A stretch of 34,872 bases of DNA, from contig JAPYPT010000017.1 of assembly GCA_029937535.1 (NCBI GenBank), positions 1 through 34,872 of the forward strand. Direction: 5' to 3'. This stretch comes from Alphaproteobacteria bacterium. GTDB taxonomy: Bacteria > Pseudomonadota > Alphaproteobacteria > GCA-2731375. The position numbers were made by a program, and so were the translations under genes. Of the stretch, positions 5,381 through 26,427 are shown piece by piece (positions within the stretch are counted from its first letter, which is position 1; each line of letters begins with the position of its first letter). A model generated the notes under the pieces. It had not been told where the DNA came from, did no database searches, and was given only the letters and a program-made list of their open reading frames with translations.

Positions 5381-6398
5381 ATGCAGCTTGCCCGCCTCAC
5401 CTCTGATGCCGTGCTCGACGCTGCCTATGCATGGCTGTGCAACCGGCGACGGAATTATCCGGCGGACGCCGATGTCTGGTCGTTCCGGCATCACTGGCCG
5501 GTGGAGAAAAAACGCATTCAACACGACCTATCTGGCGGGGCACTTCCGCTTTGGCCTGTTGGATCGCATCACCTTGGCGGACGGCAGCGACATTGACCTG
5601 TGGTCGGCCCGCGATGCGCTGGTGTTGAAGGCGTTGACAATGGTTCTGGCGGATGTCCTGCCAGTATCTCCCTACTGCACCCACATCAAGGGTCACGGTG
5701 GGGCCAAGGCGGCTGTGCGGCAGGTGATGGCGGGACTTGGCGACAACCGCTTCGTCTTGCGGACCGACGTGAAGTCCTATTATGCCTCCACCGATCATGT
5801 GTTGCTGATGGAGCGCCTTGCCCGTCATATCGTCCGGCGCACCATCCTCAATTTACTGGGTCAGTATATGAAACGCATCTCGGAGCGTGGCGGCCGGTTC
5901 TTCGAGCACGAGCGCGGCATTTCACTGGGCTGCCCGTTAAGCCCGCTAATGGCAGCCTTCTTTCTGCATGAGATTGATATCCGGATGGTACGCACCGGGT
6001 TGTTCTATGTCCGCTTCATGGACGACATCCTGGTCCTTGCGCCAACACGGTGGAAACTGCGTTATGCGGTGAAGGCCGTGAACGAAGTCCTGCAATCACT
6101 TCGTCTGGATAAGCATCCCGACAAGACCTTCGTCGGCAGGATCGAACGTGGCTTCGACTTCCTGGGCCACCATTTCGGCCAGAATGGGTTAACGGCAGCG
6201 GATGCAACAATACGGAAGTTCGTCGCACGTACGGCCCGGCTTTATGAGCAAGGACGGGAGGGACGCATCAGTCCCTCCGCGCTTGGGCTGTATGTCAGGC
6301 GATGGAGCGGGTGGTTGCAAGGCGGGTTGGGAGAACTCAAGGTTCGACTGGCGTTAACCGAGCTTACGACGCCGCCGTGCCAGGACCAGCCCGAGTAA
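5381..6398 (+). pseudogene. Reverse transcriptase (RNA-directed DNA polymerase), N-terminus displaced by a +1 frameshift
   Basis: Frame 2 N-terminus (MQLARLTSDAVLDAAYAWLCNRRRNYPADADVWSFRHHWPVEKKRIQHDL), then frame 3 (LAGHFRFGLLDRITLADGSDIDLWSARDALVLKAL...LRTDVKSYYAS...RGISLGCPLSP...YVRFMDDILVLAP...DKHPDKTF...FDFLGHHF). RT motifs 3-7 are intact. The frame change lies between about 5505 and 5540. Confidence 0.8.
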
Positions 6399-22635: not shown

Positions 22636-23841
22636 ATGGAACTTGAACTATCGGCGGACTTGCGGGACTTCCAAGGCGACGTGCGCGGCTTTCTGGCCGC
22701 TAACTTGAGCCCGGAAGTCCGCGAGGCGGCGCGCCTGTCGACCACCATTTTGGCGGAACATGGCGCCACCCAGGATTGGCACAGGATCATGTATCACCAA
22801 GGCTGGGCCGCGCCGTCCTGGCCGGTGGAACATGGCGGCCCCGGTTGGGACCCCATGCGCCGTTATCTGTTCGCCACGGAATATGCCCGGGCCGGGGCGC
22901 CGATCCTCTCGCCCTTGGGATTGAGCATGGTGGGCCCCGCTATCATGGGCCACGGCAGCACCGAACAGCAGGCCTATTATCTGCCACGCATTCTGTCCGG
23001 CGAGGATGTCTGGTGCCAGGGCTATTCGGAACCGGGCGCGGGCTCTGATCTGGCATCGTTGCAATGCCGGGCCGTGGCGAGGGGTAATGACTACATCATC
23101 AACGGCACCAAGATCTGGACCACCAATGCCCATAACGCCAACCGCATGTTCTGCCTGGTCCGCACCGCCACCGACGGTAAGCCACAGGCCGGCATCACAT
23201 TCGTGTTGCTGGAAATGGACAGCCCCGGCATTACCGTGGAGCCGATCCATATTCTGGGCGGCGATCACGAATTCAATCAGGTGTTCTTCGACGATGTGCG
23301 GGTGCCCCAGTCGAACCGCATCGGCGCTGAAAACGACGGCTGGACCGTGGCCAAGTATTTGTTGGAATTCGAGCGCGGCGCGGCTGCCCAATCGGCCGCC
23401 CTGCGCGTTCGTCTGGAAGATATCCGGATCATGGCGGCGGGGCGGCGAGGGGGCAATGGACAAAGCCTCGGCACCGAGCCCGCTTTCGCACAGGCCCTGG
23501 CCGGCCTGGAAATTGCACTGACCACGCTGGAATTTACCGAGCACCGCACCATGGCCGAAATCGCCAAACGTGGCAGCCAGGGCCCGGCGTCCTCCATGCT
23601 GAAGACCAAGGCCACGGAGGTGCAAATGGCCGTCAGCGACCTGGCCGTGCAGGCCATCGCCTATTACGCCGCACCCCATCAGCCCGAAGAGCGTCTCGCA
23701 GGCGCCAATCTCGCACCCATTGGCGAACGTGATGAAATGTCGATAACCGCGCGCTATCTAAACGACCGGGCCGCCGCCATCTACGGCGGCTCCAACGAAA
23801 TTCAGCGCAACATCATGGCAAAGCTGGTGCTCGGACTTTAG
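22636..23841 (+). CDS. Acyl-CoA dehydrogenase
   Basis: GYSEPGAGSDLASLQCRA, YIINGTKIWTTNAHNANRMFCLVRT, YGGSNEIQRNIMAKLVLGL C-terminus. Confidence 0.95.
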   Translation: MELELSADLRDFQGDVRGFLAANLSPEVREAARLSTTILAEHGATQDWHRIMYHQGWAAPSWPVEHGGPGWDPMRRYLFATEYARAGAPILSPLGLSMVGPAIMGHGSTEQQAYYLPRILSGEDVWCQGYSEPGAGSDLASLQCRAVARGNDYIINGTKIWTTNAHNANRMFCLVRTATDGKPQAGITFVLLEMDSPGITVEPIHILGGDHEFNQVFFDDVRVPQSNRIGAENDGWTVAKYLLEFERGAAAQSAALRVRLEDIRIMAAGRRGGNGQSLGTEPAFAQALAGLEIALTTLEFTEHRTMAEIAKRGSQGPASSMLKTKATEVQMAVSDLAVQAIAYYAAPHQPEERLAGANLAPIGERDEMSITARYLNDRAAAIYGGSNEIQRNIMAKLVLGL

Positions 23842-23920
23842 AGCATAAATACCAGGACCGGCAGCAGGGCCAAGGCCATGTTGGGGAAGTCCGCGAGCGT
23901 AGGCATTCTGCCACCCTTCA
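23793..23920 (+). repeat. Repeat C copy 1 (acyl-CoA dehydrogenase 3' end plus 79 bp downstream)
   Basis: 128-bp ungapped match to 25206..25333; about 10 mismatches, all left of a perfect 53-bp block (23868..23920). Confidence 0.95.
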
Positions 23921-23988
23921 CGATCAAAACGGTAGCGACCCATTATGGCTCCCCCTTTTGGCTCGCAGACCTTTGCAGGACACAGTAG

Positions 23989-24081
23989 CCTTCATTGACG
24001 ATGGATCGCTATGGGCACTTGTTTCCATCGGACGACCTCAAGGCGGCTATGGATGCGATTGCTGAGGAGTTGATAGGATGA
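23989..24081 (+). pseudogene. Tyrosine recombinase (phage-type integrase) C-terminal remnant
   Basis: In-frame after TAG: PSLTMDRYGHLFPSDDLKAAMDAIAEELIG*, the catalytic-Tyr block (TMxxYGHLFP) typical of phage-type tyrosine integrases. Confidence 0.8.
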
Positions 24082-24287
24082 CAAAAAGGGAAATCTTGAT
24101 TGCGAAAAGGGAGATGCTTGTGACGCGCCTTCATGAACTCGAAGACGAGTTCCGCATCGCGATTGATGCATACGCCTCTATCCAAGATAAGTATGAGGGG
24201 ATTGGAAACGATAGCGATACCCTGAAAAGACACACCGAGCGTTACCGGCAAGCTGCACAAAACATCGACGACCATCGGAAGCAATGA
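24078..24287 (+). CDS. Small charged/coiled hypothetical protein (69 aa)
   Basis: ATG overlaps the stop of the integrase remnant (ATGA); MTKREILIAKREMLVTRLHELEDEFRIAIDAYASIQDKYEG... Confidence 0.55.
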   Translation: MTKREILIAKREMLVTRLHELEDEFRIAIDAYASIQDKYEGIGNDSDTLKRHTERYRQAAQNIDDHRKQ

Positions 24288-24460
24288 GATGACGCTGTAT
24301 CCGAACTAACGGAACTGATCCTCTCCGGTGACGATTAACCGCTGGACTTTAACGAGGACGCTATCCTTTTAACTCCTTTACATAGCAACTGAACGGCGCG
24401 GTGAGCTCGTGATGATCAGTAAGGAATTTTGTAAATAACATTTTTTATGTGTAAATAAAG

Positions 24461-24489
24461 TTGACAGCCATACGGTATTGCCGTATGAT
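24461..24489 (+). promoter_or_regulatory. Consensus sigma70-type promoter with operator-like inverted repeat in the spacer
   Basis: TTGACA - 17 bp - TATGAT; the spacer contains ATACGG-tattg-CCGTAT; start codon of the toxin at 24495. Confidence 0.8.
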
Positions 24490-24494
24490 GGAGA

Positions 24495-24779
24495 ATGGAT
24501 ATTGTTTCGATCAGCCACAGAGGTTTGAGGGATTTCATTGAAAAAGGAACCTCAAGGACTTTGCCACAAGACAAGGTTGTTCGAATTCAGTCCGTATTGA
24601 CCGCTCTATTGGTCGCGGCGGATATGGATGAATTATCCGGCCCGCCTGGTTGGCGTATCCACCAACTGAGAGGGGACCGGACGGGTGTTTGGTCGATCTC
24701 GGTAAGCGGCAATTGGCGGCTGACGTTCAAAATAGAAAACGGCGATATCGCCGAACTTAATTTGGAGGATTATCACTGA
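24495..24779 (+). CDS. higB: HigB/RelE-superfamily toxin
   Basis: HRGLRDFIEKGTSRTLPQDKVVRIQSVLTALLVA...GWRIHQLRGDRTGVWSISVSGNWRLTFKIENGDIAELNLEDYH. Confidence 0.9.
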   Translation: MDIVSISHRGLRDFIEKGTSRTLPQDKVVRIQSVLTALLVAADMDELSGPPGWRIHQLRGDRTGVWSISVSGNWRLTFKIENGDIAELNLEDYH

Positions 24780-25084
24780 TGGCAAGGGAAAAAATTCCAG
24801 TCGGGATGACCCCATCCCATCCAGGCCAGTTTATCCGAACGGAGATCATTGAGGAACTTGGCCTCACGATCGATCGTGCCGCGACGCTGCTGGATGTGCG
24901 GGCGGCAACCCTGTCCGATCTAATCAATGAAAAATCGTCACTCTCTCCAGAAATGGCGCTCAGGATCGAACTGGCCTTCGATGTGAAGGCGGACCTGCTT
25001 TTGCGCATGCAAGCCTGGTATGACAGCGTCGCCATTCGAACCAAGGCAGGAGAACTCAACGTTCAGCGCTACCAACCCACGTGA
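24779..25084 (+). CDS. higA: HigA-family antitoxin (HTH)
   Basis: MTPSHPGQFIRTEIIEELGLTIDRAATLLDVRAATLSDLINEKSSLSPEMALRIELAFDVKADLLLRMQAWYD; start overlaps the toxin stop. Confidence 0.92.
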   Translation: MAREKIPVGMTPSHPGQFIRTEIIEELGLTIDRAATLLDVRAATLSDLINEKSSLSPEMALRIELAFDVKADLLLRMQAWYDSVAIRTKAGELNVQRYQPT

Positions 25085-25205
25085 TGGCGCAAGAAGACTT
25101 TGAACTGGTCCGGGGCAGCGGCAATATCTTCCGTGACTTTGATGGTCCAGCCCCGATTTGAAACAGGCCAAGGCGATCCTTGCCGCCCAAATCATCGGCT
25201 TTATT
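25084..25205 (+). pseudogene. Truncated and frameshifted second XRE/HigA-like antitoxin N-terminus
   Basis: MAQEDFELVRGSGNIFRDFDGPAP / frame change / DLKQAKAILAAQIIG, then broken at the start of repeat C copy 2. Confidence 0.65.
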
Positions 25206-25333
25206 CAACGAAATTCAGCGCAACATCATGGCCAAATTGGTGCTGGGTCTTTAGAGCATGAATACCAAGACCATCAGCAAGGCCAAGGCCATGTTGGGGA
25301 AGTCCGCGAGCGTAGGCATTCTGCCACCCTTCA
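25206..25333 (+). repeat. Repeat C copy 2 (orphan acyl-CoA dehydrogenase tail NEIQRNIMAKLVLGL* plus downstream)
   Basis: 128-bp ungapped match to 23793..23920; the coding part differs only at synonymous positions. Confidence 0.95.
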
Positions 25334-25413
25334 GAAAATTCCACTGACATCAGTATTATGGAAATATTTCCGTGATGCAGTGATGGGCATCACCGGCGGG
25401 TGGGTTTCGGCGG

Positions 25414-26427
25414 CTATCTATTTTTCTTGCGGAAGGCGTAGCGGCGATAGGTGCGCATGATCAGGCCCATGACGCCGTCGGGCATGAAGAAGACCACCGC
25501 CAAGGCCATGAAGCCGATGGGCATGAAGGCCAGGCTGGTGGGCAGGGAGGCAGGCAGGTAGAGCACCAGAAAACTGCCGATCAAGGCGCCCCATACGGAT
25601 CGGATTCCGGCCATCACCGCGCCGACCAACAAAAGTATGGAAAAAAACAGGCTGTAGGAATCCGGCGCCACGAAATCCGCCAACAGGCCGGTCAAGGCGC
25701 CGCCGACGCCGGCGTACATGGCGGATACGCCGAATATGGTGGTCTTGAACAAGGCCACGTTGATGCCCATGGGCGCGGCGGCGATTTCGTTGTCGCGAAT
25801 GGCGGCCAGCGCCCGGCCGGTTCGGCTATTGAATAAATTTTGGGCGAGCCAGATCAACCCCAGCAGGATGACCAAGGTCACGAAATACCAATATTGATCG
25901 TCATTGAGGTTCAGCCATTGTGGCGGTTCCGGCCGGTCCAGATAAACGCCGCTGACGCCCCCGGTCCATTTTTGCAGGGCATCCAGCTTGAGGAATTGCG
26001 GCAGGGCCAGGGACAGGCCCCAGGTCATCAACATAAGATGCACCAGGCTGAGGCGGAGCGCCGGCCAGCCGAACAGAAAACCCGCAATGAACGATACCAT
26101 CGCCGCCAGGGGCAGGGAGCTATAGGCGGTGAGGCCGCCGTGGGACATGGCGATGGAGGTGGTGTAGGCCCCGATGGCGAAAAACGCCCCATGGCCGATG
26201 GAAAATTGCCCGCTCAACCCGGTCAGCAAATTGATCCCAAGAATGGCGATGGCCAAGGCCCCGACCATGGCTAGGCGATAGGTGGAATAGCCATCAAGAA
26301 CGAATGGAAGTACCACCGCCACGGCTAAAAACAGGGCCAGCGCCGTCCATCGCCACGAGCGGGGAATGACGTTCGGATCCCGGTCCGCTGGAACCCGGCG
26401 ATCGGTGTGTGCGCGAGGGTCGTTCAA
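25414..26427 (-). CDS. livM: Branched-chain amino acid ABC transporter permease, LivM-type
   Basis: ILGINLLTGLSGQFSIGHGAFFAIGAYTTS, GRALAAIRDNEIAAAPMGINVALFKTTIFGVSAMYAGVGGALTG. Confidence 0.9.
   Translation of the reverse strand: MNDPRAHTDRRVPADRDPNVIPRSWRWTALALFLAVAVVLPFVLDGYSTYRLAMVGALAIAILGINLLTGLSGQFSIGHGAFFAIGAYTTSIAMSHGGLTAYSSLPLAAMVSFIAGFLFGWPALRLSLVHLMLMTWGLSLALPQFLKLDALQKWTGGVSGVYLDRPEPPQWLNLNDDQYWYFVTLVILLGLIWLAQNLFNSRTGRALAAIRDNEIAAAPMGINVALFKTTIFGVSAMYAGVGGALTGLLADFVAPDSYSLFFSILLLVGAVMAGIRSVWGALIGSFLVLYLPASLPTSLAFMPIGFMALAVVFFMPDGVMGLIMRTYRRYAFRKKNR

Follow-up and report, generated by a model that had tools for sequence, protein, structure and literature searches.

A probable mobile-element scar with a toxin-antitoxin pair at the junction of an acyl-CoA dehydrogenase gene and a convergent candidate microprotein gene

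In an alphaproteobacterial genome, the 1285 bp at 23921-25205 of the window (the whole stretch of DNA that was analysed, 34,872 nucleotides) are an insertion, because relatives show an acyl-CoA dehydrogenase gene joined directly to the counterpart of the right flank. The inserted island is probably an old mobile-element scar with a toxin-antitoxin pair, and the direct repeat at its borders is a duplication of the junction at which two convergent genes meet end to end. These are the dehydrogenase gene and a gene of 22 codons, and one whole copy of each remains. As a scar it is of an ordinary kind; the microprotein gene within the repeat is the fresher observation. The features of the region, with coordinates in the window and strand where one applies, are as follows:

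22636-23841, plus: acyl-CoA dehydrogenase gene (ACAD2), 401 aa, intact, with Pfam N, M and C domains and genus orthologues at 73-81%
23793-23920: left copy of the 128-bp direct repeat, from the repeat comparison, joined to the native dehydrogenase body
23838-23906, minus: microprotein ORF of 22 codons in its left copy (MPTLADFPNMALALLPVLVFML), separated from the native upstream region
23966-24080, plus: C-terminal remnant of a tyrosine integrase (QTFAGHSSL, then LTMDRYGHLFPSDDLKAAMDAIAEELIG), lacking the 5' part and with a 1-bp frameshift near 23992
24078-24287, plus: 69-aa ORF of no confident family
24495-24779, plus: HigB-type toxin, 94 aa, intact (PF05015, E 3e-13; phrog_3066)
24779-25084, plus: HigA-type antitoxin, 101 aa, intact (TIGR02607 above cut-off; phrog_1381)
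25084-25205, plus: second antitoxin gene, 5' fragment with a 1-bp frameshift, cut at the right repeat
25206-25333: right copy of the direct repeat, from the repeat comparison, contiguous with the native right flank
25251-25319, minus: microprotein gene of 22 codons (MPTLADFPNMALALLMVLVFML), presumably the functional copy, conserved in relatives
25380-25393: GTGA-N6-TCAC palindrome with CRP/FNR-like half-sites, in front of the microprotein gene, conserved in relatives
25414-26427, minus: LivM-type ABC permease gene (PF02653), the native right neighbour by synteny

The initial annotation had proposed a comparison with related genomes for an empty site, and such a site is present in four genomes of the same genus (G003, G005, G006 and G007). 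In these, the dehydrogenase gene stands directly before the counterpart of 25334 onward in the synteny ACAD1-ACAD2-microprotein-permease-glyoxalase, and the counterpart of the right repeat copy lies at most about 110 bp past the dehydrogenase stop, followed by the native right flank. The gene order of G005 (AMP-ligase, ACAD1, ACAD2, permease, glyoxalase) is shared by G006 and G007 from ACAD1 onward, within the stretch examined, and is found in G003 with one extra dehydrogenase copy. The neighbour likewise matches in G010, but the permease gene appears broken there. Tandem sets of two to three acyl-CoA dehydrogenase genes, at this locus or one like it, were seen on G003:C113, G010:C326 and G012:C108. 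Elsewhere in the window, positions 5388-6395 (plus strand) encode a reverse transcriptase matching PADLOC RT_UG4 (E 1e-94), a defence-type enzyme of the unknown-group class.

The same comparison bears on an assembly join, between two strains or loci, in this metagenome-assembled genome. An assembly of 534 contigs, in which the longest exact block shared by the repeat copies is 53 bp, would leave room for such a join, but collinearity with relatives extends over both outer sides, and final assembly word lengths typically exceed 53 bp; we regard it as highly improbable.

The G+C content of the island is 42-53%, as against about 60-65% outside, and, of the contents previously listed between the repeats, sequence comparison bore out the integrase remnant, HigBA and the broken second antitoxin. 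About 38 codons of the integrase are left, with GHSS and DRYGHLFP boxes, and they match a Bradyrhizobium plasmid over 34 aa (E 2e-6) and the full-length integrases of G191 (74% over 35 aa) and G120 (68%), both from further genomes of the class. The broken antitoxin gene has 88% DNA identity to an intact gene of the same genome (G000:C325) and 83% to G006:C172; compared with the intact gene, it has a 1-bp gap and its 3' end is cut off. HigB and HigA are predicted to form a toxin-antitoxin module, as adjacent and abutting ORFs, toxin first, which match family models. Toxin-first order and the HigB-like_toxin and HigA models are common to this pair and to known type II HigBA modules, and by sequence the pair is ordinary, without notable difference from them. 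Homology searches with the 69-aa ORF gave no usable match. The 45 bp at 23921-23965, from the left repeat to the integrase remnant, match nothing found; they contain a CATAAT box whose spacing from the microprotein ATG equals that in the right copy. Homology of this segment to the native right flank was considered and rejected as chance, since ATTATGG lies at equal distance but only 2 of the 21 preceding bases agree by eye. A weak collinear match of LPPFTIKTVATH to the integrase LPPKTVQTFAGH across the left border was likewise set aside as too short for reliance.

The two repeat copies align over 128 nt without gaps at 92% identity, and direct comparison confirmed the earlier description of ten mismatches lying to the left of a perfect 53-bp block, at repeat positions 28, 31, 32, 40, 43, 55, 63, 68, 69 and 75. 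Five of the mismatches fall into dehydrogenase codons and, as had been stated, all five are synonymous. Their clustering is suggestive and not decisive, because ten random mismatches per 128 bp would leave a mismatch-free run of at least 53 bp with p of about 0.04 anywhere and about 0.007 at an end. Throughout the source genome (5.58 Mb, 534 contigs), full-length matches to the repeat occur at two sites, with no third, and the next-best matches are the tails of other acyl-CoA dehydrogenase genes. The block is therefore not a genome-wide repeat unrelated to integrases; such a repeat is what the initial annotation had named as counting against its reading. At positions near consensus in the relatives (repeat positions 40 and 43 and the second base of microprotein codon 16), the right copy agrees and the left copy deviates; the right copy has the common base at three of the four polarised positions, and repeat position 32 points in the opposite direction.

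Illegitimate insertion of a stray mobile-element fragment during break repair, with a staggered host duplication of 128 bp, could account for the fragment-like content of the island, which is cut at both edges. Copies that arose in this way should start identical, yet ten mismatches lie within 48 bp and 53 bp are perfect; furthermore, break-repair duplications of 128-bp size are unusual, and we consider this origin quite unlikely.

The repeat does contain the last 15 codons and the stop of the dehydrogenase gene, as first annotated, but the 79 bp described as downstream sequence hold a complete 22-codon ORF on the minus strand. This ORF is convergent with the dehydrogenase gene, and the stop codons of both overlap. 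The intact copy of the dehydrogenase gene is the left one, with its native body, and that of the microprotein gene is the right one, with its native upstream region, where a ribosome-binding-like AAGGGTGG precedes the ATG. The left microprotein copy is without the palindrome and has a Pro within the hydrophobic stretch. A "downstream spacer" within a repeat can thus hide an unannotated, conserved tiny gene.

The microprotein ORF is complete in G002, G003, G005, G006, G007 and G010, and a contig end cuts the copy of G008. In eight aligned rows, 14 of the 22 residues are invariant, and variable columns at codon positions 1, 2 and 3 amount to 10, 1 and 18 of 22. Together with a pairwise pN/pS of 0.145, this codon-position pattern indicates purifying (coding) selection on the gene across the genus. 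The 22-aa product is a predicted membrane microprotein and is presumably produced as a protein. In the window and in G002, G003, G005, G006, G007 and G008, the ORF follows the LivM-type permease gene at a distance of approximately 97-130 nt, and the palindrome stands between the two. The full GTGA-N6-TCAC is found in seven of eight genomes, including G010, which keeps it beside the broken permease gene, and G008 has a one-base variant (GTTA). The microprotein accompanies the permease rather than the dehydrogenase, because in G002 the 117 bases beyond the microprotein stop are without a dehydrogenase tail. Searches outside the genus, by DNA pattern in 385 genomes of the class and by profile in 289, gave no convincing match; weak and partial microprotein-like matches were set aside, and a match in the source genome at C140 was rejected as not being a microprotein. 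What emerges is a testable candidate, found genus-wide beside a LivM-type permease gene and with a conserved GTGA-N6-TCAC in front.

For the origin of the island, we give about an even chance to a decayed integrase-type element which inserted at the dehydrogenase/microprotein junction and carried an allelic copy of that junction. Such a horizontally acquired element would have inserted where the dehydrogenase gene and the convergent 22-codon gene touch, its end bringing an allelic copy of the junction, by which each gene would have kept one whole copy. After insertion, the left side would have had the whole dehydrogenase tail and the right side the microprotein gene together with its upstream region. 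Subsequent deletions may then have taken away the greater part of the element, the integrase losing its 5' part and the second antitoxin its 3' part, while HigBA would have been left in place and may have favoured retention of the island. That the repeat copies are attL and attR made by the integrase of the remnant, where the crossover lay and why HigBA was retained is what we infer from this arrangement.

Support for an integrative element comes from the empty site, from the integrase remnant 45 bp from the repeat and from the low G+C of the island. Direct repeats stand at both borders and the target is restored, the dehydrogenase and microprotein genes each being intact once. If the left repeat copy was imported with the element, in the manner of e14 in icd, and the right one is the host's own, the right copy is expected to match the relatives, as it does at three of the four positions. 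Synonymous divergence, expected of a carried gene end under selection, is also in line with this reading; however, the all-synonymous pattern, which the initial annotation had found to fit a carried end, is no distinguishing mark, since two gene copies diverging under selection would be expected to show the same. Of the earlier proposal of an element carrying the 3' end of its target gene, the foreign insertion, the empty site, the integrase remnant, the toxin-antitoxin cargo and the intact flanking genes stand. Site-specific integration may plausibly have used the dehydrogenase 3' end, but not this end alone as its target, the repeat being made of the ends of two genes which converge and overlap. 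A more specific version, in which the attachment site is the overlap of the dehydrogenase gene and the gene for the predicted 22-aa membrane microprotein, and the element carried both ends and preserved both genes in one insertion, is doubtful. If this were a true attachment site, it would be a new target, protecting two overlapping genes in a single insertion.

Other evidence weakens the integration reading. A truncated gene lies at each inner edge of the island, and thus the borders may mark where deletions ended, in place of att sites. Repeat position 32 is polarised in the opposite direction, and the perfect 53-bp block lies within the microprotein stretch, for which a carried dehydrogenase tail would have no need. 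The repeat is also not tied to the integrase of the remnant: the remnant is frameshifted and without its 5' part, no complete integrase of the element stands at the site, and the repeat lies 5' of int, whereas two relatives with complete integrases, G120 and the distant G151, have a tRNA-Met 116 bp and about 320 bp, respectively, beyond the int 3' end. These tRNA genes are only a hint against the repeat as att site, and none was seen beside the G191 or the Azospirillum plasmid integrase in the results examined. The complete integrase of G120 (L208, G120:C29, 8102-9511) has its tRNA-Met in the same direction, with the 5' end facing the integrase, and no direct repeat of at least 24 bp was found near it. 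Among the integrases listed for 11 genomes of the genus, none lies near this locus. Neither an attP nor a second insertion at the same site appeared: a pattern search of viral contigs gave no attP, and the genomes and viral contigs examined had no further occupied copy of the site. One viral contig, L192, does contain a dehydrogenase tail, but it was rejected as attP, as it carries a full dehydrogenase gene in another neighbourhood, beside phage-like genes.

A substantial rival, to which we give clearly less credence than to the decayed element, is that a dehydrogenase-microprotein segment was duplicated in tandem, or integrated by Campbell-type homologous recombination, and that deletions and capture of mobile-element debris followed; the 128 bp would then be the remainder of two longer, separately evolving copies. 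In its favour, both inner island edges are gene truncations at the repeat, the two repeat copies differ almost exclusively at synonymous sites in both coding parts, as two once-functional copies would, and the same dehydrogenase occurs in tandem at this locus in G003 and G010, other dehydrogenase arrays being frequent in the family. Yet the island has no trace of a second dehydrogenase body, and at least one duplication, one insertion and two deletions would be required. Furthermore, the single-copy orthologues of G007 and G006 are the closest sequences to the ACAD2 of the window, in a tree read without rooting and for ingroup nearness alone, its outgroup rows (G012, G002 and G000C40) being wrong-strand ORFs.

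The decayed integrase-type element can be compared with known systems. Among the elements which insert at, and replace, the 3' end of a protein-coding gene is e14 in icd. Elements of this kind have been described in general terms (PMC12884075). The island has in common with the e14/icd type that the host gene is intact, that a diverged, mostly synonymous copy of the gene end flanks the insert and that an integrase lies near one end. Unlike that type, its integrase is a remnant, the repeat extends across a further gene in convergent orientation, and neither an active nor a second copy is known. A literature search, conducted without the main catalogue of integration targets, found no report linking a dehydrogenase 3' end to integration. 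The initial annotation had not recognised such a gene end as an attachment site; for a dehydrogenase gene there is, however, a precedent in Mycobacterium abscessus, where the serine-integrase prophage prophiT49-3 resides mid-gene at attB-21 in a fadE gene (PMC9934374). In contrast to the island, prophiT49-3 uses a serine integrase, inserts at about position 280 of 1140 and likely inactivates the gene; with the proposed integration of the island it shares an acyl-CoA dehydrogenase gene as attachment site (PMC9934374).
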